A program made the position numbers and the translations under genes. 64,000 nucleotides of DNA from Elusimicrobiota bacterium (lineage in GTDB: Bacteria; Elusimicrobiota; Elusimicrobia; UBA1565; UBA9628), in the NCBI GenBank assembly GCA_023249675.1, contig JAHFCE010000004.1:675-64674 (forward strand). The letters run 5' to 3'. Below the pieces are notes generated by a model. It made no database searches, was not told the origin of the DNA, and was given only the letters and a program-made list of their open reading frames with translations. Shown piece by piece: positions 26,839 through 41,117 of this stretch (position 1 is its first letter; each line of letters starts with the position of its first letter).

Positions 26839-27795
26839 ATGTTCATGCGCGCGCTCGCCGCGGCGGCGCTGGCATTGCTCATCAGCGGCGACGCTGCTCG
26901 GCTCGGCTGGGACGCGATCGGGTTGTGGCGCTTCATGTTTCCATACCTCTGGCTGTTCGTCCTGCTCGAGGTGGGCCGCGCGCGTCGGCGCATCGAGGAC
27001 GGCGAGATTTTTCTCGCGGGCGCGGCGATGGCGATGCTGTACGGCGGGATCTACGCGAAGGACCTCCAGCACGGCCTTCATCCATTCGGCATCGACTGGC
27101 TGGGTGCGCTTTGCGCGGCCTTCGACGGGGGCATGACGACTGTCCTGGCCCTCCACGTCGCCGACCGCCTCCGGCCCCGGGGCGAGGAAGAACCTCGGGA
27201 GATGGGCCTGCTCGTCATTGTTTTCCTCGTCTTCGGCCTCGCCGCGGCCGCAGCCGTTTATGGCGTGAAGACCGCCTTCAATTTCTACCGGGCCGAGCGC
27301 CTGCTCGGGCCGACCTGGCTCGTCGCCGACATTCTCTTCGCTTATGCCGCATGGACCTTGGCGCGGCGCGCGTGGACGCGCTCCGAGGAGGAGGCCGAGA
27401 CGGGCCGCGAATCCTGGGTCTGGAGTCTCGCCGCGTTCGCCGTCTGGCTCCCGGGGGCGCGCCTCATTGCCCGCGCGTGCGTGGCCATGGAGCTTTCCGG
27501 CGCGCTTCTCTATTTCTGTGTCGGCGCCTGGACGTTTGGGGTTGTCGGGATAGTCTGGCGGTTACGGGCCGCTTTACCAACGGATTTTGGAAGCGGCATT
27601 CCCTCGCCGAGGGCTCGGTCACGCGCAGCGCTGGCCGCGGCGCTGTGGCGCGCGGCGGGGGCATTGATCCTCGCGGTTTCTTTGGGCGCCGACCTCAATG
27701 AGGCCCGCGCCGCCGGCCTCTTTTCCGCTGCGATCGATTGGCCCTCCCGAGCGTTGTTTGCATGGGTTTTCCTGACCGCAAAGCTCAAAGTCTGA
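26839..27795 (+). CDS. Hypothetical polytopic membrane protein
   Basis: 318 aa ORF with several hydrophobic segments, no recognised family motif; abuts ridA. Confidence 0.65.
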   Translation: MFMRALAAAALALLISGDAARLGWDAIGLWRFMFPYLWLFVLLEVGRARRRIEDGEIFLAGAAMAMLYGGIYAKDLQHGLHPFGIDWLGALCAAFDGGMTTVLALHVADRLRPRGEEEPREMGLLVIVFLVFGLAAAAAVYGVKTAFNFYRAERLLGPTWLVADILFAYAAWTLARRAWTRSEEEAETGRESWVWSLAAFAVWLPGARLIARACVAMELSGALLYFCVGAWTFGVVGIVWRLRAALPTDFGSGIPSPRARSRAALAAALWRAAGALILAVSLGADLNEARAAGLFSAAIDWPSRALFAWVFLTAKLKV

Positions 27796-27902
27796 CCCCG
27801 GACTTCGGGCCCATGACGGCCTAGGCCACCTGCCACTTTCGCCCTTACCGATGGACCCAGGTGCCTGGAAATCGCGTCTGTCATAATGAGAACGTGAGTT
27901 TA

Positions 27903-27916
27903 TTGATTTGGATCAA
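27903..27916. promoter_or_regulatory. FNR-type dyad TTGAT-N4-ATCAA upstream of giant Bat fusion
   Basis: Sequence TTGATTTGGATCAA read directly; perfect match to FNR consensus half-sites and spacing; 3 nt before ATG at 27920. Confidence 0.45.
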
Positions 27917-27919
27917 TCA

Positions 27920-30900
27920 ATGAGGCGCTTTCCCCTGCGCCGCGTCCTGGGAGCCTTTCTCGCCCTTGTCCTCGTCGTGGGCGCTCCCGGTTCCGAGGCC
28001 TATTACGCCGCTGCCCAGACCATCGGCGGGCGCGCCTCTGAGCCGGGCTCCGCCTCGCGGGCGATTCCCATCCTGGGTCTATCCGGACCCTCCTCTGAGG
28101 TCTCCTCACTGTCTGCCGCGGCGTTTTCCCTTTCCCCCGCCGTTCTGTCCGCTCCCGTCGCTGCACCGGAAGTCCGTGCCGTTCCGGCCGCCGCGTTGGC
28201 CGTCCCCGCGCGGGCTGCTGCCGCCGGGGTTGCCGCCGTCCCAACGCGATCGGCGCATGTCTCCGCGCTGCCCGCCGCGGCCGTCGCCGAGACGAGCAGT
28301 GCCGTCGGAACTCTGTTCGACGGTTCGGCCGCCAAACACGCCGTCGAGACGCCCGTCGTCGCTTCGGTCCGCCGAGGTGCGTTTGGCCGCTCGATCACCA
28401 AGGGTCTTGCGATCCTCGCCCTGTCCCTTGGCGTGCTGGGAGTCTCGCAGGACGCCCACGCTCAGCTCCTGCCGTTGATGCCGCCGCCCATCGTCTCGCC
28501 GAGCGACCCCGCAGACAAGCTCCTGCAGACCAAGGTCCGGACCGTCCAGGATGTCATTGACTTGATCAATCGGAGCATCGCCGGGGCCTTGAAGAAGGCC
28601 GCGACGCCGGCGGCGCAGGCCCCCGCGCCCGTCGTTCTGCCCCGGCCCATCGAGGCCGGCGTCGTTGTGGACCGCCAGGGCGTGACCGTCGGCGAGCGCA
28701 TCCACCTGACGATCACTTTGCGCAATACCTCGGACAAGCCGGTCACGCTGGAGGGTCTGCGTTCCTCTCTGCAGGAGGCTCTGCCCGAGGATCTCGAGCT
28801 CGAGGGTAAGGACGCCGAGGCGCCGCTCGCCCTCGCTCCGGGCGAGAGTCAGACTATCGTCTACGAGGCGATTCCGTTCGGCTCGGGGACGCTCACTTTG
28901 GACGGCGGCATCGCGGTCGTCGCGGTCGGCGAGACCGCCGCCTATCCCCAGGGCATCGAGATCGTCCTGCCCGCGACCGAGATCACCGTCGCGTCCGTTC
29001 TCACGCCCGACTGGAAGGAGAAGGGCCTGCGCGACATCGTCGGCGTCAAGCGCGCCGATGGTCCAGATTGGATGTGGCTCGCGGCGATTCCTCTTGGGAT
29101 TCTGCTGCTGGTTGGCGTGCACCGCCTGGTCGCGGCGCGCCGCCTGTATCCGAAGCTCAACACCCAGCGCCTCTCACTCGTCACGGTCGCCGAGGCGGAG
29201 TTGGCGCGACTGAAGGCCGCGTCCGACGACCGCGACGCGGCCTCTTTTTATGCCCGCTACCAAGACCTTTTGACCGGCTTTATGGTCGATTTTGCGGGCC
29301 TGCCCAAGGCGGCGCGCGATGCGCGCGCGCTGGAGCGCGACCTGCGCAAGTCCTCCTATGACGCGGGGCAGATTTCCGTTGCGGCGCGTCTGGCCGCCGC
29401 GGCCGAGGCCGCGCGCTTCGCGGGCCTTGAGAAAGATGCTTCCGAGCGCGGGCGCATGCTCGACCGCCTCGCGGCCCTCATCGAGAGCGTGGCCGGCAAG
29501 GCCGGCCAGCCGCAGGCGGACAACACGGGCGTGTTCGCGCTGCTGGCACTTTTGCCCGGCGCCGCCGGCCTGGCTTTCGGCAGTCCCTGGGTCCTTCTTC
29601 TTCTGGCCCCGTTCGCAGCCTATGCCCTCTGGTCGTGGCGCAATCGGGCCAAAGGCGGGCGTTTTACCGTTTCCTCATCCGCGCAGACGCCCGCGCGCCG
29701 CACCGTGCGCGAGCGTCTCGCGGGCCTGCCGCGCGTCCTGCGCTTGGCCGCCTTGGGTCTGATCATCCTGGCGCTCGCGCGGCCGATGATCGGCACCCAG
29801 CGCAGCGAGACCTTCATCCCCTCGACGGACACGGTGGTCTCGATCGACTTGTCGAGTTCGATGAGCGGCGACAAACTCCAGGGCGTACGCGACGCCGTGC
29901 GCGGCTACATCGAGGAGCAGCGCCGCGGCACCGAGAATCGTGTCGGCATGGTCACCTTCTCCGATGACCCCTACCTCGACGTCAAGCTGACGACCGACTA
30001 CGATGCTTTGATCTCTCATCTTAAGGAGCTCGGGACTTCGGGAAATACGGCAGTCGGCAAGGCGATGCTGACCTCGATCGCCCACTTCCTTGAGCTTAAC
30101 GCTCTCGATCTTGACGCCCAGGCCGACCCGCGCGCGGCCGAGGTTCAGCGTCTGCTGCGAGACCAAGGCCTGTCCGCGGCGCTCGCCTACGCCAAACCGT
30201 ATCCGGATCTGATGCAGAAAATCCTGCAGCCGGACCGCGCGAAGATCGTCGTGCTTTTCACGGACGGCGACTCCAACTCCGGCATCGACCCCCAGGCCGC
30301 GGCCTCGATTGCCGCCTCCCTCGGCGTGAAGATCTACGGCGTGGGCATCGCGGGCCCTCACGAATCCTTCAACGAAGCGACCTTGCGCGGCGTGGCTGAG
30401 AAGACGGGCGCGAAGTTCTTCCGCGCCGGCGACGCGGACGCGATGCGCGCGGTTCTTCTCGAGATATCCCGGCTGGAAAAGAGCCCGGCCAAGATCGTCT
30501 CGAGCGTCACGGTCAAGGATTACACGAGCCTGCTCGCACTTCTGGCTTTCCTGCTTCTCGGCGCCGAGCTGACGCTCGCCAACACGCGCCTGCGCACGTT
30601 GTACGGCATGGCCTTCGTGATGGCCCTCGGCGCGGGTCCTTTGGATGCGCCGCGTGCAGTCCCGGCGCCGCCCGCCGCGGTCGCGGCTTCGGCCGAGGCG
30701 CCGAAGTCGGCGACCGAGGCGGTGCCGCCCGAGGTGATCGAGGGCAACAAGCTGTATCATCAGGGCCTTTTCGCCCAGGCGCTCAAGAAGTACGGCGAGG
30801 CGATCGAGCGCCATCCCGATGTTCCCGAGATTTACTTCAACATGGCCGATGTTTACCTGCGCCTGGGCGAGAACGTGAAGGCCGACGCCGCCTGGGCGAA

Positions 30901-33900
30901 GTACCTGGCGCTGACCCCGGACCTCAAGAAGCAGTCGCAGACCCTCTTCAACCTCGCGAACTCGGCGCTTGAGGCCGGCGACGCCGAGAAGGCGGTTGAG
31001 CTCTATAAGGAAGCCCTGCGCCGCGACTCCGGCAATCAGGACGCGAAGTGGAATCTTGAGGCGCTCAAGCAGGCGCAAAAGGAGCAGCAGCAACAGCAGC
31101 AGGACTCGAAGAAGGGAAAAGCCGGGAAGCAGAAAGGAAAGCCAGGCAAGCAGAAGGGCAAGTCCAGCGAGGGCCAACCCGAGCAAGGCCAACCCGGCAA
31201 CGGTCAGCCTGGTGACGGCAAACCCGCCCAGGCCAAACCCGATCCGCAGGCGGGTGCTGACAGGCTCGGCCAAGAGCTCGGCGCTCAGGATAAGGAAGCA
31301 AAGGACGCCGCGCGCGAGTACATGACCCGCAGGGGCTCCGGCGTGTGGGGCGTGGCCGCTGTGCCTCTGGCCTTCGCCGGACAAGGCATCGTCTTTTCCT
31401 CCTCGGCTTTTCTCTGGGCTGTCGTTCTGGGCCTGCCGGTCGCGGCTTTGCTCGTCGCGTGGGGTATCAAGAAGCGGTTGGACGCGGCTCGGCGCCTCAG
31501 CCCCGGAACCGCGCCGAAGAGTTTCCGGTCCTGGTGGGGGGCGCGCCGTTTCCTGGGCAAGTCGGCGTTGGCGCTGGCGGCGCTGGGCCTGATCGGCCTG
31601 ACCGCCGGCGATCCGCGCGGCGGCATGGTGGATGAGCGCGTCAATTTCGGCGGCAAGGACATCGTCGTCACCGTCGACGGCTCCTACAGCATGGTTTACG
31701 CCGAGGACGGGCGCATGGCGCGCACGCAGAAGGAGCTCAGCGAGTTCATCATGCGCCTGCAGGGCACCGATCGCGTGGGCCTCGTGGTCTTCGCGGGCCA
31801 GGCGCGCACGGCTTCCCCGATCTCGATCGACTACAGTAACTCCGAGTTCAAGATCAACCGGCTCGATGTCGAGGCGCGTGATCTTGCTGAGGGCTCGAAC
31901 CTCGCCGCCGCGATCGAGTACTCAGCCGCGCACTTCGAGACGGCCAAGAAGTTGGGCGACCGTCAGCGCATTCTGATCGTCATCTCCGACGGCGACGTGC
32001 CCGAGGCGGACATCGATGATGCGATCACAGCCGCCGCCGAGCACGGCGTGACCGTCTACGCGATCGGCGTCGGCGACCCCGCCGGCACCAAGATCAAAAT
32101 ACCGACGTCCGATGGGACTGGCACCATGTATCTGATCGACGATAAGACCGGCGAGTCTGCGGTCACGCGCCTCAACGAAGCTCCCCTGCGCAAGCTCTCC
32201 GAACGCACGGGCGGCGCGTACTTCCGCGCCGGCGGCCGAGCGTCCATCGACCGTATACTCAACGAGGTCTCCCGCCTTGAGAAAGGCCAGAGGGGCGATC
32301 AGATCAAGTCGCCGAGACCGATTGGCGTCTACCTGCTGTGGCCAGCACTCCTGATGCTGCTCCTCGACCTGCTTCTGCCCGGCCGCTCTTTGCTCAGACG
32401 CGGTGTGCCGGCTCAGAAGCTCGCAGCCGCGGAAAAGCCGAAAAGCGGCGGCTCCGGGGCGCTGCTCGGCGCGGCGCTGATTCCTCTCGGCGCCTGGCCC
32501 CAGATACTGCCTTTCGCCGCATTCGCGGTCGTCGTTGCCGCCTACCTCGCCGCCGACTCCTGGAGCGGCGGGGCGATCACGCGGCGCATCCGCGAGGCAT
32601 GGCAAAGCCGGCGCGGCGTCGTTGAAAAAGGCGTCGCCGCCGATCTGGTCCATCTGTACGATTTGCGCGAGGCCGACGAGCGCCGTTTGTCCGCCTTCGT
32701 CAAACGCTGGCAGAATGCCTCGGAGCCCCGGCACGAAGCCTTGATCGCGGCGGCCGCCCGCGATGGGGCGCTGTGGCGCGAAAGTCTCACCGCCGCTTAT
32801 TTATCGGGCGCAGCACCCGAGACGCTCGAGAAGATCCTGGCCGCCCTGCGCCGCACGGCGCGCCAGCGTCTGGAGCCGCTTGCGCCCGTGACCGGCCGCA
32901 TGTTGGCGCGGCGCGAGCTGATTGCCTGGATGGCGCACGCCGAGGCCGAGGCCCGCCTCGCGGCGCTTGCCGCCGTCGCCGCGGGCCAGCCTGCCGTCCT
33001 CGCCGTGCCGGCGCCCGCGTCCGCTCCCGCCGGTTTTTTCGCCCGATTCAAGAGGGGTGCTGTGGTCGGCATGCTGGTTTTGATGATCGCGCTGACCGGC
33101 GTGTCCTCGGTCGGCACGGCGCATTTTCGTGCCGAGCAGCGCGCCGCGGCCGAGTTCACCCTCAAGAACTTTTATGCCGAAGATCTGTTCGTTTTCTCTG
33201 ATCGCTACGTCGACGCGCGCATCCCCGAGCAAGTTCTGCCCGCGCTCAAGCGCTGGCACGAGTCGCGCAAAACCGCGGGCGCGGACTTTGCGCGCGCGCT
33301 GGCGATCCTGCGCGAGTCGCCAGACCCTAAGGCCGACAACATCCTCGTGGCGATCTTCCGTCATGTCGGCGTCCTGCCGCTCACGAACGCCGGCAAGGAC
33401 GTTCTTCTGCGCGCGCTGATCGAGCGCGAGAGCGACTCGCTGTGGAACTCGATGGACGATCTGATCCAGTCATCGCGCGGCGATCCGGCCGCGGCCCGGA
33501 TGCTGGTCAGGCTTGTGACTCTTGGCGTCGAGTCCAATAACGAGAAGACGATCCTTCGGTTGTTTCGCGTGCTCAAGAGCCCAAATGAGTCGGTCGCGCA
33601 GCTCTCCGGCAGGGTGTTGTTCGCTTACCTGTCGCGCGACGGCGGCTCCCGGTTTTTTGAGATATTGAAAACGGTTCAGGCCACATATGAGCTTGATCCA
33701 GATCTACAGCTGTGGACGGCGTCTTTCGCCTTCTTCCGCCTCACCGACCCGGCCGCGGCCGTGGCTGATCTCAGACAGGCCAAGGACTTGCTCGACCGGG
33801 CGCTCATCAACGCCGCCCGCCTCGATGCCGTCCGCCGGGCGATCTACGCGCAGACGCCGCCGGATGAGGACATCGAGGCTCCGCCCTCTTTGACGACGGA

Positions 33901-36241
33901 GCTGGTCGACCTCGCGGACCACGTGTTGGGCGACGGCGGGGCTTCCGCGTCCTCGGCCGAGGCGGCTCGCTTCCTCGTGACCGAGGCGACGAATTTATTT
34001 ATCCGGGAAGCGGAGGCGGCGATCCCCGGTCTCCACGAGCGCCTGATTCAGGACGGCGTCACCCTGCCTGACGGCCAGGGCTTCATCTTCACGACGGCGA
34101 CCCCCCGGGAACGCTATAGGCTCGACCACTTGAGGGCCTTCTGGGCCGCGCTGGAGGACATGGGCGGGCCGCTCGTCGCGGAGCCGACGCAGGAGAACGC
34201 GGCCCTGCGCGAACTTCTCGACCGCGCCGGCGCGACGATCGCAAAAAGTCTTGAGGCGGGGGCTAAGGCCGGCATGAAGGAGAGCGGCGGCGTGCCGGAT
34301 GCGGCGGCAGATCAGCTCTTGCCTGTCCTGCGCGAGGGCTACCGGGTGTTTAGCCGGGACTTCTTCCTACGCGTCCTGCGCGCGGAGAGCCTGGCTCCCG
34401 CGTTCGGCGATCCCGCGGGTCCGTTCGCCTACCCGGAAGCGCTCGACGCGGCCTCGCTCGCGAAACTGCGCGAGGCCTTGCTCGGGATTGCCCGTTCCGG
34501 CAACGGCTGGGATGATGACGGCAATCCGCGGACGTTGACCTGGGGGGAGAAGATATATCTCGTCGGCGCGCTCGAGGCGGTCGACGCGGCTCGATGGACT
34601 TACTATCCAGATGCGGCCATGCCGGGCGCGAGCGACGCGGAGTCTCTCGCGCTGGCGCGCCTGGCCTTGGCCCTTGCGGCGCATCCCAAGGACGCCGACT
34701 TCGCCCTCAAGGCGGAGGAGAGCCTGATCAAGCTTTTGGCCAGGGGTCCGCTCAATACCGAAGACGCGCTCAAGGTCCTGGAGCAGATCTTCACGGTCGT
34801 CAACGGCACCGAGAATGCGGCCGCGGCGACCGCCGCGATCGTCGACGCGATGAGACTTCCCAATAGCGCCGTTCTGGCGCCGGCGGTTGCCGCCATGATC
34901 CTGAACCCGGCGCTCCATAACGGCTGGAATGTGTTCCCTGGCGATGTGTTCGTCGAGAGGTTGCGCGACAAGGGCTTCTTGAATAAGAACTTGGACGGCG
35001 ACTACGAGTTCAAGCAATCCTACACGCGTCAGGAAGTCGCGGCGATCCGCGCCTGGCTCAAGGGCGTGCTGGCTGCGGGCCGAGGCCGGGAGTCCGGGGC
35101 CTCTCGACCTCTTCAGGATAAGGAGAAGGCGGCGTTGCGCCGGGCGATCGCCGCCGCCGAACAGGCGTTGAAATGCTTCCCCGCCCCGGCGGACCCGGGC
35201 CTCCACGCCTTCGCGCCGCTGACTATGGCCGCTTTGCCCGGTCTGGCGCCGTGGCTGCTGTTCACGATCCTCGGCCTGAGCGCGGCGTATCTTGTCTGGC
35301 GCCTGCTGGCGCGACGAACGTCCGGCGCCGCAGTCGAAAGTCCCGCGCGCGCGGAGGTCCCCGCCGACGTGATCGCGCGCCACCGCCGCATCGAGCTCTC
35401 TGCCCGCCGCCTGGCGAGCGCCGTCGGCGGGGGCTTATTCCGCTCGCGCTTCATCGGCCCGGGTGGCATCGACTTCGCCGAGGCCCGCCCCTATCAGGGC
35501 GAGGACCTGCGCGAGATGGACTGGAAGACCTCCGCGAAGAAGGGCGAACCGTTCGCCAAGAAATTCGAGCTCGAGCGCGACATGCCCTTGATGCTTGTCA
35601 TCGACATCAGCCGCTCCGGGCGCTTCGGCACGCGCGGGACCGACAAGCGCACGGTGATCGAGGACGCGGCGGCCGTGCTCGCCCTGGCCGCCGCCCACTC
35701 CAACATCCGGGTCGGCGCCGTGCTCGTCTCCGACCGCGTGGAGAAGGTCATCCCCGCGCGCGGCGGCGCGCGCCACGCGATGGCGATCGTCGACGCGATT
35801 CTTCAGGCCGAGCCGACGGGCGTTGCGACCAACCTCAAGCCCGGTCTCGAGGCTGCCGGCCGCCTGCTTGGCTCGCGCGCGATGGTCGCCGTGCTCTCCG
35901 ACTTCCTCGCCCCCGATTTCAAGGATGCGCTCGGCGCGCTCGCCTCGCGCCATGATGTTCGCGCCATCCGCGTGAGCGACCCGGCCGAGCTCGGCCCGCT
36001 GCCCGACGTGGGCCTGCTGCCTGTGGTAGACGCCGAGACCGGCGTCACGCGCCTGCTCGACACCTCCTCGCGCGCCGGACGCGCCGAGGCTGCCGCCGCC
36101 GTGGCCCGCCGCGAGGCCGCCATCGAGAACGCCTTTGACGCGGCGCGCCTTCATCCGATTTTGATTTCCACCGCGGGAGACCCGCTCGACAGCCTCGAGC
36201 GCGGCTTCCATCCCAAAGCCAAGCCGTCCTTCACGCCGTAA
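27920..36241 (+). CDS. Giant multidomain Bat-operon fusion: BatD-like region, BatA-type VWA, BatC/E-type TPR, BatB-type VWA, helical region, DUF58 (ORF track start is TTG 27908; ATG 27920 also possible)
   Basis: Uninterrupted ORF of 2777 codons from 27908. MIDAS DLSSS at 29846-29860, DGSYS at 31676-31690, DISRS at 35603-35617; TPR about 30740-31070; DUF58 motif ARPYQGEDLREMDWKTSAKKGEPFAKKFELERD about 35480-35580; several TM segments. Confidence 0.9.
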   Translation: MRRFPLRRVLGAFLALVLVVGAPGSEAYYAAAQTIGGRASEPGSASRAIPILGLSGPSSEVSSLSAAAFSLSPAVLSAPVAAPEVRAVPAAALAVPARAAAAGVAAVPTRSAHVSALPAAAVAETSSAVGTLFDGSAAKHAVETPVVASVRRGAFGRSITKGLAILALSLGVLGVSQDAHAQLLPLMPPPIVSPSDPADKLLQTKVRTVQDVIDLINRSIAGALKKAATPAAQAPAPVVLPRPIEAGVVVDRQGVTVGERIHLTITLRNTSDKPVTLEGLRSSLQEALPEDLELEGKDAEAPLALAPGESQTIVYEAIPFGSGTLTLDGGIAVVAVGETAAYPQGIEIVLPATEITVASVLTPDWKEKGLRDIVGVKRADGPDWMWLAAIPLGILLLVGVHRLVAARRLYPKLNTQRLSLVTVAEAELARLKAASDDRDAASFYARYQDLLTGFMVDFAGLPKAARDARALERDLRKSSYDAGQISVAARLAAAAEAARFAGLEKDASERGRMLDRLAALIESVAGKAGQPQADNTGVFALLALLPGAAGLAFGSPWVLLLLAPFAAYALWSWRNRAKGGRFTVSSSAQTPARRTVRERLAGLPRVLRLAALGLIILALARPMIGTQRSETFIPSTDTVVSIDLSSSMSGDKLQGVRDAVRGYIEEQRRGTENRVGMVTFSDDPYLDVKLTTDYDALISHLKELGTSGNTAVGKAMLTSIAHFLELNALDLDAQADPRAAEVQRLLRDQGLSAALAYAKPYPDLMQKILQPDRAKIVVLFTDGDSNSGIDPQAAASIAASLGVKIYGVGIAGPHESFNEATLRGVAEKTGAKFFRAGDADAMRAVLLEISRLEKSPAKIVSSVTVKDYTSLLALLAFLLLGAELTLANTRLRTLYGMAFVMALGAGPLDAPRAVPAPPAAVAASAEAPKSATEAVPPEVIEGNKLYHQGLFAQALKKYGEAIERHPDVPEIYFNMADVYLRLGENVKADAAWAKYLALTPDLKKQSQTLFNLANSALEAGDAEKAVELYKEALRRDSGNQDAKWNLEALKQAQKEQQQQQQDSKKGKAGKQKGKPGKQKGKSSEGQPEQGQPGNGQPGDGKPAQAKPDPQAGADRLGQELGAQDKEAKDAAREYMTRRGSGVWGVAAVPLAFAGQGIVFSSSAFLWAVVLGLPVAALLVAWGIKKRLDAARRLSPGTAPKSFRSWWGARRFLGKSALALAALGLIGLTAGDPRGGMVDERVNFGGKDIVVTVDGSYSMVYAEDGRMARTQKELSEFIMRLQGTDRVGLVVFAGQARTASPISIDYSNSEFKINRLDVEARDLAEGSNLAAAIEYSAAHFETAKKLGDRQRILIVISDGDVPEADIDDAITAAAEHGVTVYAIGVGDPAGTKIKIPTSDGTGTMYLIDDKTGESAVTRLNEAPLRKLSERTGGAYFRAGGRASIDRILNEVSRLEKGQRGDQIKSPRPIGVYLLWPALLMLLLDLLLPGRSLLRRGVPAQKLAAAEKPKSGGSGALLGAALIPLGAWPQILPFAAFAVVVAAYLAADSWSGGAITRRIREAWQSRRGVVEKGVAADLVHLYDLREADERRLSAFVKRWQNASEPRHEALIAAAARDGALWRESLTAAYLSGAAPETLEKILAALRRTARQRLEPLAPVTGRMLARRELIAWMAHAEAEARLAALAAVAAGQPAVLAVPAPASAPAGFFARFKRGAVVGMLVLMIALTGVSSVGTAHFRAEQRAAAEFTLKNFYAEDLFVFSDRYVDARIPEQVLPALKRWHESRKTAGADFARALAILRESPDPKADNILVAIFRHVGVLPLTNAGKDVLLRALIERESDSLWNSMDDLIQSSRGDPAAARMLVRLVTLGVESNNEKTILRLFRVLKSPNESVAQLSGRVLFAYLSRDGGSRFFEILKTVQATYELDPDLQLWTASFAFFRLTDPAAAVADLRQAKDLLDRALINAARLDAVRRAIYAQTPPDEDIEAPPSLTTELVDLADHVLGDGGASASSAEAARFLVTEATNLFIREAEAAIPGLHERLIQDGVTLPDGQGFIFTTATPRERYRLDHLRAFWAALEDMGGPLVAEPTQENAALRELLDRAGATIAKSLEAGAKAGMKESGGVPDAAADQLLPVLREGYRVFSRDFFLRVLRAESLAPAFGDPAGPFAYPEALDAASLAKLREALLGIARSGNGWDDDGNPRTLTWGEKIYLVGALEAVDAARWTYYPDAAMPGASDAESLALARLALALAAHPKDADFALKAEESLIKLLARGPLNTEDALKVLEQIFTVVNGTENAAAATAAIVDAMRLPNSAVLAPAVAAMILNPALHNGWNVFPGDVFVERLRDKGFLNKNLDGDYEFKQSYTRQEVAAIRAWLKGVLAAGRGRESGASRPLQDKEKAALRRAIAAAEQALKCFPAPADPGLHAFAPLTMAALPGLAPWLLFTILGLSAAYLVWRLLARRTSGAAVESPARAEVPADVIARHRRIELSARRLASAVGGGLFRSRFIGPGGIDFAEARPYQGEDLREMDWKTSAKKGEPFAKKFELERDMPLMLVIDISRSGRFGTRGTDKRTVIEDAAAVLALAAAHSNIRVGAVLVSDRVEKVIPARGGARHAMAIVDAILQAEPTGVATNLKPGLEAAGRLLGSRAMVAVLSDFLAPDFKDALGALASRHDVRAIRVSDPAELGPLPDVGLLPVVDAETGVTRLLDTSSRAGRAEAAAAVARREAAIENAFDAARLHPILISTAGDPLDSLERGFHPKAKPSFTP

Positions 36242-36250
36242 GGAGTATCG

Positions 36251-37690
36251 ATGAAGAAAATAAAAGTCCTTTCAAATCTCCTGAGCCTGGGGCTCGCCGC
36301 GATCATCGCGGCGCCAGCCTCGGCCCAGACCGCGGCCGGACGCGCCGCGACCCCCGGCGATTCCGCCGGGATCGTGCCGGTGTCCGGCGGCGGTCCCATC
36401 GCGCCGCTCGTGAACGGGACGCTGAGCCCGTCGGCTCTATCATTGGCGCCGTCGGTGGTGCCTGTCGCTCCCGCGCCGCAGGCCGTTGCGGCCTCCGGAG
36501 TCGAGCGCATGAAGGCCGCGACCGTCGCTTTGGCCGCGATGCCCGACCCCGGCAAGGCCTCCTCTGCGCAGATGCGCGACGCGGGCGCGATCCTCGAGGA
36601 GGCGCTGACCGGCGAGAGAGGCGTGCTGTCCGCCGCCGCCGTGGATGCCTCGCCGCGCGGCCACGTCGAAGTGGGAGGCGGGGTGGCTGATGTGGCGGTC
36701 GTACGCGCGGCCGCGGTCGTCATGCGCATCCGCGCTGAGATCGCGAAGGTCATCGTCGGTCAGAAAGAGATGATCGACTCGATTCTTATCGCGATGATCG
36801 CCGGGGAGCACGTCCTGCTTGAGGGCGTTCCCGGCGTGGCGAAGACCCAGACGGTCAATGCCTTAGCCGATGCCGTCGAGGGTGGGTTCAATCGCGTGCA
36901 GGGTGCGCACGACCTTATGCCGAGCGATGTGCTCGGCGCCGAAATCCTCGAGGAGGATCCGGCGACAGGCCGGAAAGAGTTCAAGCTCAAGAGGGGGCCG
37001 GTGTTCACCAATATCCTCCTCGCCGATGAGATCAACCGCACGACGCCGAAGACTCAGGCAGCGTTCCTCCAGGCGATGCAGGAACGCAAGGTCACGATCG
37101 GAGGCAATACGCTTGACTTGCCGAAGCCGTTCACGGTGCTCGCGACGATGAATCCGCTCGAGCAGGAAGGCGTGTTTCCTCTTCCCGAGGCCGCGCAGGA
37201 CCGATTCATGTTCAAGGTTCTCGTTCCGAAACCGAGCAAAGAGGAGCTCATCGAGATCATGCATCGCTTCAGCGGCGACAACCAGCCGAAGGCGGGCAAG
37301 ATCACCACCCTCGCCGAGCTGGTCGAGATCCGAAAAATCGCCGAGAAGGTCCGCGTCAACGGGTCAATTGAGACATACATCGCCAGCATCGTCGATGCCA
37401 CGAATAATCCGATGACGTATGGCATCGCCGCGGAGGGCGTCATCGAATCGGGAGCTTCTCCGCGCGCGGCCATCTTCCTGCTCAAGGCCGCCAAGATCAA
37501 CGCGCTGCTCGAGGGCCGCGCATGGGTCGGTCCGCGCGACGTGCGCAAGGTCGCGGCGCGCGTCCTGCGCCATCGTCTGACGCTTAGCTACGCGGCGCAC
37601 GAACTGACCACGGACCAGGTCATCGAGAACATCCTGAGCAAGGTTCCGATTCCTCAACCGCTGCCCGCGGCGGCGACTCCCGTCCCGTAG
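36251..37690 (+). CDS. MoxR-family AAA+ ATPase with signal-peptide-like, Pro/Ala-rich N-terminal extension (about 170 aa)
   Basis: VIVGQKEMIDSILIAMIAGEHVLLEGVPGVAKTQ (Walker A), NILLADEINRTTPKTQAAFLQAMQERKVTI (Walker B), TMNPLEQEGVFPLPEAAQDRFMFK; N-terminus MKKIKVLSNLLSLGLAAIIAAPASAQTAAG. Confidence 0.93.
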   Translation: MKKIKVLSNLLSLGLAAIIAAPASAQTAAGRAATPGDSAGIVPVSGGGPIAPLVNGTLSPSALSLAPSVVPVAPAPQAVAASGVERMKAATVALAAMPDPGKASSAQMRDAGAILEEALTGERGVLSAAAVDASPRGHVEVGGGVADVAVVRAAAVVMRIRAEIAKVIVGQKEMIDSILIAMIAGEHVLLEGVPGVAKTQTVNALADAVEGGFNRVQGAHDLMPSDVLGAEILEEDPATGRKEFKLKRGPVFTNILLADEINRTTPKTQAAFLQAMQERKVTIGGNTLDLPKPFTVLATMNPLEQEGVFPLPEAAQDRFMFKVLVPKPSKEELIEIMHRFSGDNQPKAGKITTLAELVEIRKIAEKVRVNGSIETYIASIVDATNNPMTYGIAAEGVIESGASPRAAIFLLKAAKINALLEGRAWVGPRDVRKVAARVLRHRLTLSYAAHELTTDQVIENILSKVPIPQPLPAAATPVP

Positions 37691-37735
37691 GCCACTCAGA
37701 GCGCGACGGATTGGGGGATAAGGAGGCCGCGCAGT

Positions 37736-40246
37736 TCAGCGACTCGGCGTTGTGGTTTTTGCGTCGGCAGTCAGCTCGAGTTCGAGGGGCGAGTCTCCGC
37801 GCAGGACCTTGATGGTCACTTTCTGACCGGGGATCATCTTCGCCAGCGCGGCCGCGACATGGTCGGCGGCTTCCTGGCCGCCTTCAGTGATTGACTCTGC
37901 GCCGATGCCAATGAGCAGGTCGCCGCGCCGAAAGCCCGCTGTGTCGGCCGCCGAGCCGCGGCGCACGTATTCGATCGCGAGGCCCGCATCGGGCGCTTGG
38001 GGGTCGGTGAGATCGGCGATGATGCCAAGCGAAGCGGTGGCGATATTGCCCGTCGCCGCGTACTGCGCCATCGCGCTCGCCACGTCCACAGCTTGGATCG
38101 AGAGGGCGAGGCCGTCGGAGCCGCCGCCCTTGCTGATGATTTCGGTGTTGATACCGACGACCTCGCCCTGGTCGTTGAATAGCGGGCCGCCCGAGTTGCC
38201 GTGGTTGACCGCGGCGTCGGTTTGCAGCTCGCGGACGTATATGTTGCCGCGGCCGTCGTCCAGGCCGCTGACGATGCCCCGCGTGACGGTAAACGGAAGA
38301 GATTCTGGGTAGCCGATCGCGGTCACTTCCTCGCCTTCGCGCGGGGGGATCGCCGCGAGCGGAACGGTCGGCCATGGTTTGCCGTCCAGGCGCGGCGGCA
38401 GCTGGACGATGGCCAGGTCCTTGTCGTGGTTGACGGCGAGAACCGTGGCGCTCAACTCTCCATCGACGCCGGGCACGCGGGCGTTGACGAACTCGCCGGG
38501 CTGCTTGGCGCCGACGACATGCCCGTTGGTGATGAACAGGCCGTCCGGCGTCAGTATGAAGCCGGAGCCTTTTGCGACCATGTTGCCCGGCCGGTCGACG
38601 ATGACATGGACGACCGCAGGCTTGACCCGGGCGACCATGTCCGCGCGGGACTCTGGGATGCGCCCATCTGAGAAATAGTGCTGGGAATGCGGCCTCGCGG
38701 CTTTGGCGTCGCCCGCGACGGCGGGCGGCGCGACCGGGGGAACGGCCTTTTTGTGTTTGTGCGGCGCCCGCGGAAGCGCGGCGGCGAGCGCGGCGCGGGC
38801 GTTGAGGCTGGCGGGGGCGCTTGTCGGTCCGCTTTGCCACAGCGAGAGGCTCGCACCCACGATCAGCAGGGCGGCGAGGGCTTTACCGCCGTGCTTGAGC
38901 CGGAAAGCGAGCTCTTTGCGCTTCGACAGATAGCCGTGAAAGAGCGAGCAGACTCCGATCAGTCCGGCGATGATGGCGAAGGCCTCTCCGGCGAGAGGGG
39001 AGTAGGACATCGCAATCAGCATTGCGCCGATCGTGACGAGGTTGAAGATCAGGTGCGCGAGAATCGGAGACGTCAGGCTGCGGCTCTTGTAGGCGGTGTG
39101 GGCCAGGAACAGGCCGAGCGAGAGATTGAAGATGAAAACGAATGGGCTACATCCCCACGTCGCGAAATGGGCGACGGCGAAGGTGACCGCCGAGGACGCC
39201 GCCGCGATCGGAAAGGCGAAGGAGGAGACCCAGACGCCGAGGTCCAGGACGCGCTTGGTGCCGCTGACCGCGCCGGCCGCGTCGGGCAGGCCGTCGATCA
39301 TCGCGGAGAGCCAACGCGCGAACGGCTTGATCGCGGCGAATGCCAGGAAGGTCAGGCCGAAGTTGAGCAGGCGGTAGCTGACCTCCTCGACCGTGACGGC
39401 CATGGGGAGGTCGATGGCGAGGAAGGCCGCCGGGGAATCGGCGAGGTTGGCGGCGATTTCATTGGGACCGTATTGAGTGAGCAGGGCCACGCGGCCGAAG
39501 CCGTGCAGGACATGGTCGGAGAGGTACTGGGGCCACGGGACCAGATCGAGAAGGGGCCGGATGGACGCGTTGAGAATCGCGCCGATGCCGACGAGATCGA
39601 GGCCTTGTTTGAGGCCGTAGCTGAGGCGCGGCTTGTCGATGCCGGCCATGGCCGCGGCGCGTTTGGCGTCCGCGAGCGTTTTTCGGAGGGCGGCTAACTT
39701 CGCCGGCAACGCGGCCTTGAGGCCGGAGGGGCGTCGGGCGGCATTTGGGGGACTCGTGACGGACAGTCCTGCGACCTGTCCGGTCTTTTCGACCGCGCCA
39801 TCAAAGGCCTGATCCGCGTCGGCTTTTGCGGCTTCGACGGACGGAGCCGAGGTCGCCGGCTTGCGGCCGAGCACCGCGGCGATGCGTTGGCGCCAGCTCT
39901 TCTTTGCAACAGGAGAGGCCGCCCTCCGTGCGTTCGGGGGCTTCGCCGTGTCCTTGGAGGCGGCGGCATGCCCGGGGCCGGACAGAGCGGCCGCGACGGC
40001 GGGGTTGACGGGTGAGGGGGCGATCGTCGGGGCAGGCCAGACTCCATCGGGGCTCGCGGCGCCGATGTCGAGCGCCGGAGCCATCTGCGGCGCGGCGGCG
40101 AATCCGCCGGCCGGCGAGACCGGCATCCCGCCCGTTTCACCGGCGGCGACGCGCACGACCTGAGCCGAGACTTCCGGAGGCACGCAGCCCAGCAAGAGGG
40201 CGGCGGCCAAGATGGCTGAGAGCGCGCGGCGCGGGGAAATCCTCAT
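37736..40246 (-). CDS. CPBP intramembrane metalloprotease fused to HtrA/DegP-like trypsin and PDZ, with signal-peptide-like N-terminus
   Basis: CPBP motifs EEVSYR (EExxxR), FAVAH (FxxxH), HLIFN (HxxxN); trypsin motifs TNGHVV, DKDLAIVQL, NHGNSGGPLF; PDZ GLAIEYVRRGSAADTAGFRRGDLLIGIG. Confidence 0.88.
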   Translation of the reverse strand: MRISPRRALSAILAAALLLGCVPPEVSAQVVRVAAGETGGMPVSPAGGFAAAPQMAPALDIGAASPDGVWPAPTIAPSPVNPAVAAALSGPGHAAASKDTAKPPNARRAASPVAKKSWRQRIAAVLGRKPATSAPSVEAAKADADQAFDGAVEKTGQVAGLSVTSPPNAARRPSGLKAALPAKLAALRKTLADAKRAAAMAGIDKPRLSYGLKQGLDLVGIGAILNASIRPLLDLVPWPQYLSDHVLHGFGRVALLTQYGPNEIAANLADSPAAFLAIDLPMAVTVEEVSYRLLNFGLTFLAFAAIKPFARWLSAMIDGLPDAAGAVSGTKRVLDLGVWVSSFAFPIAAASSAVTFAVAHFATWGCSPFVFIFNLSLGLFLAHTAYKSRSLTSPILAHLIFNLVTIGAMLIAMSYSPLAGEAFAIIAGLIGVCSLFHGYLSKRKELAFRLKHGGKALAALLIVGASLSLWQSGPTSAPASLNARAALAAALPRAPHKHKKAVPPVAPPAVAGDAKAARPHSQHYFSDGRIPESRADMVARVKPAVVHVIVDRPGNMVAKGSGFILTPDGLFITNGHVVGAKQPGEFVNARVPGVDGELSATVLAVNHDKDLAIVQLPPRLDGKPWPTVPLAAIPPREGEEVTAIGYPESLPFTVTRGIVSGLDDGRGNIYVRELQTDAAVNHGNSGGPLFNDQGEVVGINTEIISKGGGSDGLALSIQAVDVASAMAQYAATGNIATASLGIIADLTDPQAPDAGLAIEYVRRGSAADTAGFRRGDLLIGIGAESITEGGQEAADHVAAALAKMIPGQKVTIKVLRGDSPLELELTADAKTTTPSR

Positions 40247-40436
40247 CTTGGGAAGTGTAGCCCTTCGTCCCCGATCCGACGGGGGTCGGAGGTCCCATGC
40301 GGTTGACTTCTTTGGTCCCTGCTTTTGGGGCCCAATGGACCCCCTCCCAGAGGCCCTCCTGATTGTGGGTCAGGAAGCCGATTTTGTACGGTAGACGCAT
40401 GTATCAGAAGCTCGCCGCAGGGTTTTGGCCCGGCCG

Positions 40437-41117
40437 ATGAAGGTTTCCATCGTGGTCTACGTGCTCAATGAGCTCGAGGGCCTGCGCGTTATGCTGCCGC
40501 GGATCAAGAAGGAATGGTATGACCAGCTGGTCTTTATCGATGGAGGGTCCACGGACGGCAGCGTTGAATACCTGCAAAAAAACGGTTATGAGGTTTATCG
40601 GCAGATAGGATTCCGTTGGGCGGGCGCCTATTCCGAAGCTTTTCGGCGCGCGACCGGGGACATCCTGGTCGACTTCTCGCCGGACGGGAATTCCGTTCCG
40701 GAGCGGATTCCGGAGTTGATCGAGAAAGTCAAAGAAGGCCATGACATGGTGACGGCCTCCCGCTACGTGCCCGGAGCAAAAAGCGACGACGATACGCCCC
40801 TGACGCGGTTTGGGAATTGGCTTTTCACCTCCATGATCAATCTTCTCTTCCGCGCGCACGCCACCGACAGCCTCGTGATTTTCAGGGCTTACCGCAGGTC
40901 TTTCTTGGAGAAAGCTGGAATCCTGGACGCGCAGCTCGGTCAGTGCGTGACGGGCCTCTTGACGATTCGCTGCGCCAAAATCAAGGGGATGTACACCGAC
41001 ATCCCCGGCGACGAACCGCGACGCTTGTTTGGCACAAGCAAGCTGAGCGTCGTCGTCGACGGTTTGCGCGTCTTGGCGCTTATTCTCAAAGAATTCGCTC
41101 TCAGGGCCTGCCCATGA
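40437..41117 (+). CDS. Glycosyltransferase family 2 protein
   Basis: MKVSIVVYVLNELEGL...VFIDGGSTDGSVEYLQ...GDILVDFSPDGNS. Confidence 0.88.
   Translation: MKVSIVVYVLNELEGLRVMLPRIKKEWYDQLVFIDGGSTDGSVEYLQKNGYEVYRQIGFRWAGAYSEAFRRATGDILVDFSPDGNSVPERIPELIEKVKEGHDMVTASRYVPGAKSDDDTPLTRFGNWLFTSMINLLFRAHATDSLVIFRAYRRSFLEKAGILDAQLGQCVTGLLTIRCAKIKGMYTDIPGDEPRRLFGTSKLSVVVDGLRVLALILKEFALRACP

Follow-up and report, generated by a model that had tools for sequence, protein, structure and literature searches.

Most modules of a MoxR-Bat stress-protection machine are joined in one membrane protein in an order of Elusimicrobiota

The structures of NorQ-NorD showed that the VWA partner engages the MoxR-class ring and that ATP twists the linker of this partner (PMC13036017). 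The VWA domain of the Borrelia BatA-domain protein BB0173 is periplasmic (PMC5700661), and in Riemerella both Bat and MoxR affect survival under oxidative and heat stress (PMC11834572). Fusion of bat coding regions has been described for batB and batC in Leptospira biflexa, and for others in Borrelia burgdorferi, Spirochaeta thermophila and Francisella tularensis (PMC3557215), bb0170 being among the Borrelia fusions (PMC5700661). In the locus described here, most parts of this stress-protection machine, which are elsewhere separate genes, are joined in one membrane protein within one order of Elusimicrobiota. The locus resembled the Bat operon with MoxR in its BatA, BatB, BatC, DUF58 and MoxR modules with transmembrane (TM) segments and MIDAS motifs, and differed from it in the single polypeptide, the other order of parts, the absence of BatE and PF13584, the extra helical region and leader, and the coexistence with an ordinary operon. 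Compared to the described bat fusions, which join few bat regions, five modules including DUF58 and a new helical region were found in one chain. As in NorQ-NorD, CbbQ-CbbO and RavA-ViaA, a MoxR-class AAA+ ATPase stood beside a VWA partner with a MIDAS motif; NorD has one VWA domain and is no multi-TM scaffold, whereas the fusion is multi-TM with three VWA domains. To our knowledge, the assembly mode and ratio of Bat, DUF58 and MoxR proteins have not been established, and a natural fusion, which would fix the module order and a one-to-one ratio, could serve as a single-chain target for structure or cross-linking work.

The window, i.e. the whole stretch of 64,000 nucleotides that was analysed, corresponds to contig C33 of genome G000 (62% GC, no N). 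The fused gene lies in one open frame, which runs from TTG 27908 to the stop codon that ends at 36241 (2,777 codons), and GC3 was higher than GC2 in each 200-codon block, which is coding-type throughout. The orthologues of the genus start with MRRFPL, MRRSPL or MSRFP at the site equivalent to ATG 27920. The start of the fused gene is best placed at ATG 27920, because the genus conserves this start and because TTG 27908 falls within a DNA dyad that is itself conserved. The features of the locus were as follows, in window coordinates.

27879..27887, +, putative extended -10 TGTCATAAT (genus TGNSATAAT), consensus match, kept in 7 of 7 same-genus loci
27903..27916, no strand, FNR/DNR-type dyad TTGATTTGGATCAA, ending 3 bp 5' of the start codon
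27920..36241, +, fused Bat gene; 2,773 aa counted from the conserved ATG
27920..28015, +, signal-peptide-like leader, aa 1-32, ends AAA before Q; profile family common to MoxR and other large proteins
28016..28369, +, Pro/Ala/Ser-rich linker, aa 33-150, fast-evolving
28382..28459, +, another hydrophobic stretch resembling a signal peptide, aa 155-180 (by hydropathy; several relatives have similar segments)
28625..29524, +, Ig-like, TM and helical module, aa 236-535 (hhalign, AF2 model, Ig-type fold matches)
29525..30580, +, BatA module, aa 536-887: two N-terminal TMs, VWA1, closing TM (NF047508; Pfam VWA and BatA)
29846-29860, +, MIDAS 1, DLSSS, in VWA1
30734..31177, +, BatC-like TPR and start of the Q/K/G-rich linker, aa 939-1086 (NF047507; Pfam TPR)
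31340..32377, +, BatB module with TMs and VWA2, aa 1141-1486 (NF047506; PF00092)
31676-31690, +, MIDAS 2, DGSYS, in VWA2
32378..35209, +, TM segments and all-helical HEAT-like region with divergent repeats, aa 1487-2430 (AF2, alphaRep/armadillo hits, repeat matches)
35237..35299, +, last TM, aa 2440-2460 (hydropathy and flanking charge; DUF58 predicted cytoplasmic)
35480..36115, +, DUF58 domain, aa 2521-2732 (PF01882, E=2.5e-59)
35603-35617, +, MIDAS 3, DISRS, in DUF58
36251..37690, +, moxR, AAA+ ATPase, 479 aa (PF07726, E=3.6e-55), with its own signal-peptide-like leader

After the leader and its linker, the fused protein contained in order an X/BatD-C-like module, BatA, BatC, BatB, the helical region and DUF58, and the MoxR gene followed. 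In the profile searches, Pfam matched three VWA domains, TPRs, DUF58 and, weakly, the BatA N-terminus (E=0.0015), and the Leptospira models of NCBIfam matched in the order BatA (NF047508, E=3.8e-50), BatC (NF047507, E=1.8e-19) and BatB (NF047506, E=3.6e-20), each under its strict curated cut-off. Comparison of the modules within the genome gave the same picture (DUF58 1e-40, BatB/C 1e-23 and 4e-10, BatA 1.5e-11). All three MIDAS motifs lay where they had been read from the letters, and DxSxS was kept at the three sites in 11 of 11 orthologues compared; the G021 and G020 orthologues diverged at VWA2 or DUF58 residues outside DxSxS.

The N-terminal module, earlier called BatD-like, consisted of one Ig-like domain, a TM segment and a helical domain (AF2 pLDDT 77; Ig-type folds), and the name was found to fit in part. 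BatD aligned over its C-terminal half only (hhalign E=1.1e-8), no match to BatD PF13584, with its Ig repeats, was found in the four giant fusions scanned with Pfam, and protein X of the split operon fitted somewhat better (hhalign E=1.5e-12). Two members of X weakly matched DUF4381 (PF14316), and the DUF4381 proteins of MoxR operons have a layout like that of X; in the fusion, this module sits N-terminal to BatA and is preceded by the leader. The SH3 domain, which goes with TPR in BatE, likewise had no Pfam match in the fusion, while BatE was present in the split operon. The helical region between BatB and DUF58 was novel and all helix (AF2 pLDDT 80), and Pfam gave no match for it in the window protein. 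Its sequence matched alphaRep/armadillo-like proteins, its last part recurred as divergent copies, and the fold search returned generic alpha-solenoids only, with low TM-scores and no exact fold match. In this region the window protein was about 400 aa short of the length seen in its genus; a collapsed tandem repeat was thought unlikely to be the cause, as self-comparison in three relatives gave no similar copies at E<=1e-3.

The split operon MoxR-DUF58-X-BatA-BatB/C-BatD-BatE was also kept as separate genes in the genome of the window, with batB and batC fused as in described cases. The relatives examined kept it too, including G018, in which no giant was found, although some loci were cut by contig ends. 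A DUF4381/BatD-C-like module, BatA, BatC, BatB, DUF58 and the new helical region are held in one conserved polypeptide, a dedicated MoxR gene is next to it, and the ordinary Bat operon is untouched. The proposal of a Bat/MoxR operon collapsed into one polypeptide had to be given up in this respect; what remained of it was one conserved Bat-module polypeptide beside moxR, with a membrane-anchored layout predicted. Compared to the split operon, the fusion had another order, lacked BatE and the BatD Ig repeats, and added the all-helical region and the leader. In the MoxR tree, the split between the giant-linked MoxRs and those that are solitary or belong to operons had 99/98 support, some branches being long. 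Since the split operon persists and the tree separates the giant-linked MoxRs, the fusion is an extra, old, long-diverged paralogue with its own part order. The unfused paralogous system in the same genomes provides a control, which allows the two forms to be set side by side within a single lineage.

As had been expected from the letters, MoxR directly followed the fusion. The gap was 9 bp, the Shine-Dalgarno (SD) sequence of moxR overlapped the fusion stop codon, and the arrangement was the same in most relatives with downstream DNA. This MoxR also matched the lid domain PF17863 (4e-16). Unlike the MoxR of the split operon, the giant-linked MoxRs had a signal-peptide-like N-terminus (36251-36328 in the window; orthologues L032, L033, L036-L042 and L044), and an ATPase carrying an export-like signal is a puzzle.

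An FNR/DNR-type dyad was present at the promoter. The sequence TTGATTTGGATCAA was the only TTGAT-N4-ATCAA match in the window (0.04 expected) and was kept in 7 of 7 same-genus loci while the surrounding DNA varied; G031 had the one-base variant TTGACCTGGATCAA. Genome-wide, 8 sites were found versus 0 for the reversed control pattern, and one of them adjoined a multihaem cytochrome gene and a Crp/Fnr gene whose product has the E-x-x-S-R recognition motif. TTGAT-N4-ATCAA is the FNR/DNR consensus, with which the E-x-x-S-R motif goes, and the three Crp/Fnr proteins of the genome are candidate binders. Fnr-family control of the fused gene is therefore predicted, and because the dyad sits between the extended -10 and the start codon, repression would be the likelier mode. 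The dyad by itself hints at control by oxygen or NO, and it offers a specific and cheap test linking MoxR-Bat to the sensing of either. Another of the eight sites lay shortly upstream of a further leader-bearing gene (L156, G000:C54:16197). In most loci, GGGCCCA and CCTAGGCC-type palindromes were repeated at a distance of about 130 bp on the 5' side of the fusion (27790-27870 in the window), and no RNA elements were found at 27000-41000.

Based on the precedents of NorQ-NorD, BB0173, Riemerella and the bat fusions, the locus is read as a second, fused MoxR-Bat (aerotolerance) machine, an envelope remodelling scaffold that spans the membrane, is worked by its MoxR and is under Fnr-family control, and a probability of roughly 0.6 is given to this reading. 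From hydropathy and charge, the Ig domain, VWA1, TPR, VWA2 and the large helical repeats would lie on the periplasmic side, and the N-terminal helical domain and the C-terminal DUF58 on the cytoplasmic side. By analogy with NorQ-NorD and related pairs, the MoxR ring may dock on the cytoplasmic DUF58 VWA, and both this binding and the fixed stoichiometry are predictions. ATP use by MoxR would then twist or pull the chain, so that the periplasmic MIDAS domains and the helical region could change their hold on envelope or respiratory clients. A regulator of the Fnr/Dnr family would bind after the promoter and ahead of the start codon, where it would most likely repress the gene, and expression would be tied to oxygen or NO. 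Several points speak against the scaffold. MoxR, if exported by its leader, would be without ATP, and the fused chain could be cut after synthesis. The topology is drawn from hydropathy only, and its N-terminal parity would be inconsistent if the leader and the second segment both span the membrane. A dyad downstream of a putative -10 would be unusual for an activator, and the divergence of G021 and G020 outside DxSxS and five frame changes in the closed chromosome CP096137 also have to be counted.

Internal translation starts at the domain borders were considered and rejected: no conserved SD and start was found there, only weak matches recurring in the helical repeat region, which supports a single chain. 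Such a chain could still be a precursor from which envelope proteases release the usual separate Bat subunits, the working machine being like any Bat complex. The fast-evolving linkers would suit such cutting, and so would the signal-peptide-like segments inside the chain that precede the Ig module and the TPR, as would the many envelope proteases of the genome, some with the same leader. Between G003 and G016, however, the Q/K/G-rich linker and the TM borders between modules were nearly as constrained as the domains, which makes cutting unlikely, though it deserves to be kept in mind. In the same comparison pN was lower than pS in every segment, strongly so in the domains; the repeat region alone was near parity, and the linker of the leader was fast. 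Purifying selection on the fusion across domains and junctions is thus supported by these substitution patterns.

The leader followed by a Pro/Ala/Ser-rich linker occurred in three genes of the window, namely the fusion, its MoxR and a convergent gene (37736-40246, -) in which a CPBP-type intramembrane protease is fused to a trypsin-like HtrA/PDZ protease. In a census by profile searches and sampled stretches of the genome, the leader profiles matched other large proteins (Lon-like AAA protease, M50-S8, M48, M28, S8, MFS, MscS-like, HAD and methyltransferase), several weaker matches being near E=0.01-2 and some neighbours judged by eye. At E<=0.001, most giant-carrying members of the genus had 10-17 hits and members with no detected giant mostly 0-3, a count biased by a profile built partly from giant-carrying genomes. 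The exceptions were G001, which is 73% complete and had 10 hits with no giant found, and G005 and G012 (giant, 1 hit); in 79 other genomes of the phylum the profile gave none. Leader-bearing proteins of about 400-1,930 aa also formed clusters on contigs C5 and C25 of G000 (L098, L099, L128), which include an M50-S8 double protease and several proteins with no Pfam match, and a leader-bearing MFS protein (L136:2804-4684, +) weakly matched ATP/ADP transporters (TLC, E=3e-5). The box 3 bp before the start and the leader common to the fusion, MoxR and other large proteins, AAA+ enzymes among them, are new facts, and the latter is a separate puzzle of protein placement in Elusimicrobiota.

Given that MoxR and Lon need ATP and that MFS proteins begin on the inside, a plain export role for the leader is doubtful. 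It might instead be a lineage-specific targeting tag that brings ATP-driven and proteolytic machines together at a single site of the membrane, the Bat fusion letting one tag deliver the whole machine; this is speculative and rather improbable. Still harder to credit is the view that the leader does export MoxR, leaving a static periplasmic or surface adhesion assembly that either no longer uses ATP or receives it in some unknown way. The leader is present on the giant-linked MoxRs whose starts were covered and on many envelope proteins, but MoxR keeps strong AAA+ and lid matches, which would be odd without ATP, and the same leader is on the Lon-like ATPase and MFS proteins expected to begin inside.

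A wrong joining of adjacent bat genes by assembly or annotation has a negligible chance, even though all assemblies but one are metagenome drafts and the sole closed chromosome has frame changes in the gene, since 12 further orthologues from independent assemblies of several genera are unbroken and the true split operon was assembled as split in these same genomes. The uninterrupted frame was in this way confirmed as real, an assembly join or missed stop codons being ruled out, and no relative was seen that has the same sequence as separate genes at the locus. CP096137 carried the fused gene colinearly at a single location, where it falls into six blocks and has five frame changes. Two of these changes lie in the helical region and one in DUF58, and all five are probably sequencing indels. 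The 12 unbroken frames were about 2,770-3,420 aa (roughly 2,800-3,400 residues as the range of the order) and came from the same genus (G003, G006, G013, G015, G016), the same family (G020, G021, G260, G276) and two other families of the order (G024, G026, G031), thus spanning three families; further pieces reached contig ends or were partial. In the phylum scan, 14 of 295 genomes matched the fusion. Two fusion-specific patterns, run against one genome per species for 84,980 species in a scan that covers fusions built like this one, found 13 loci, all in Elusimicrobiota (one titled only "bacterium").
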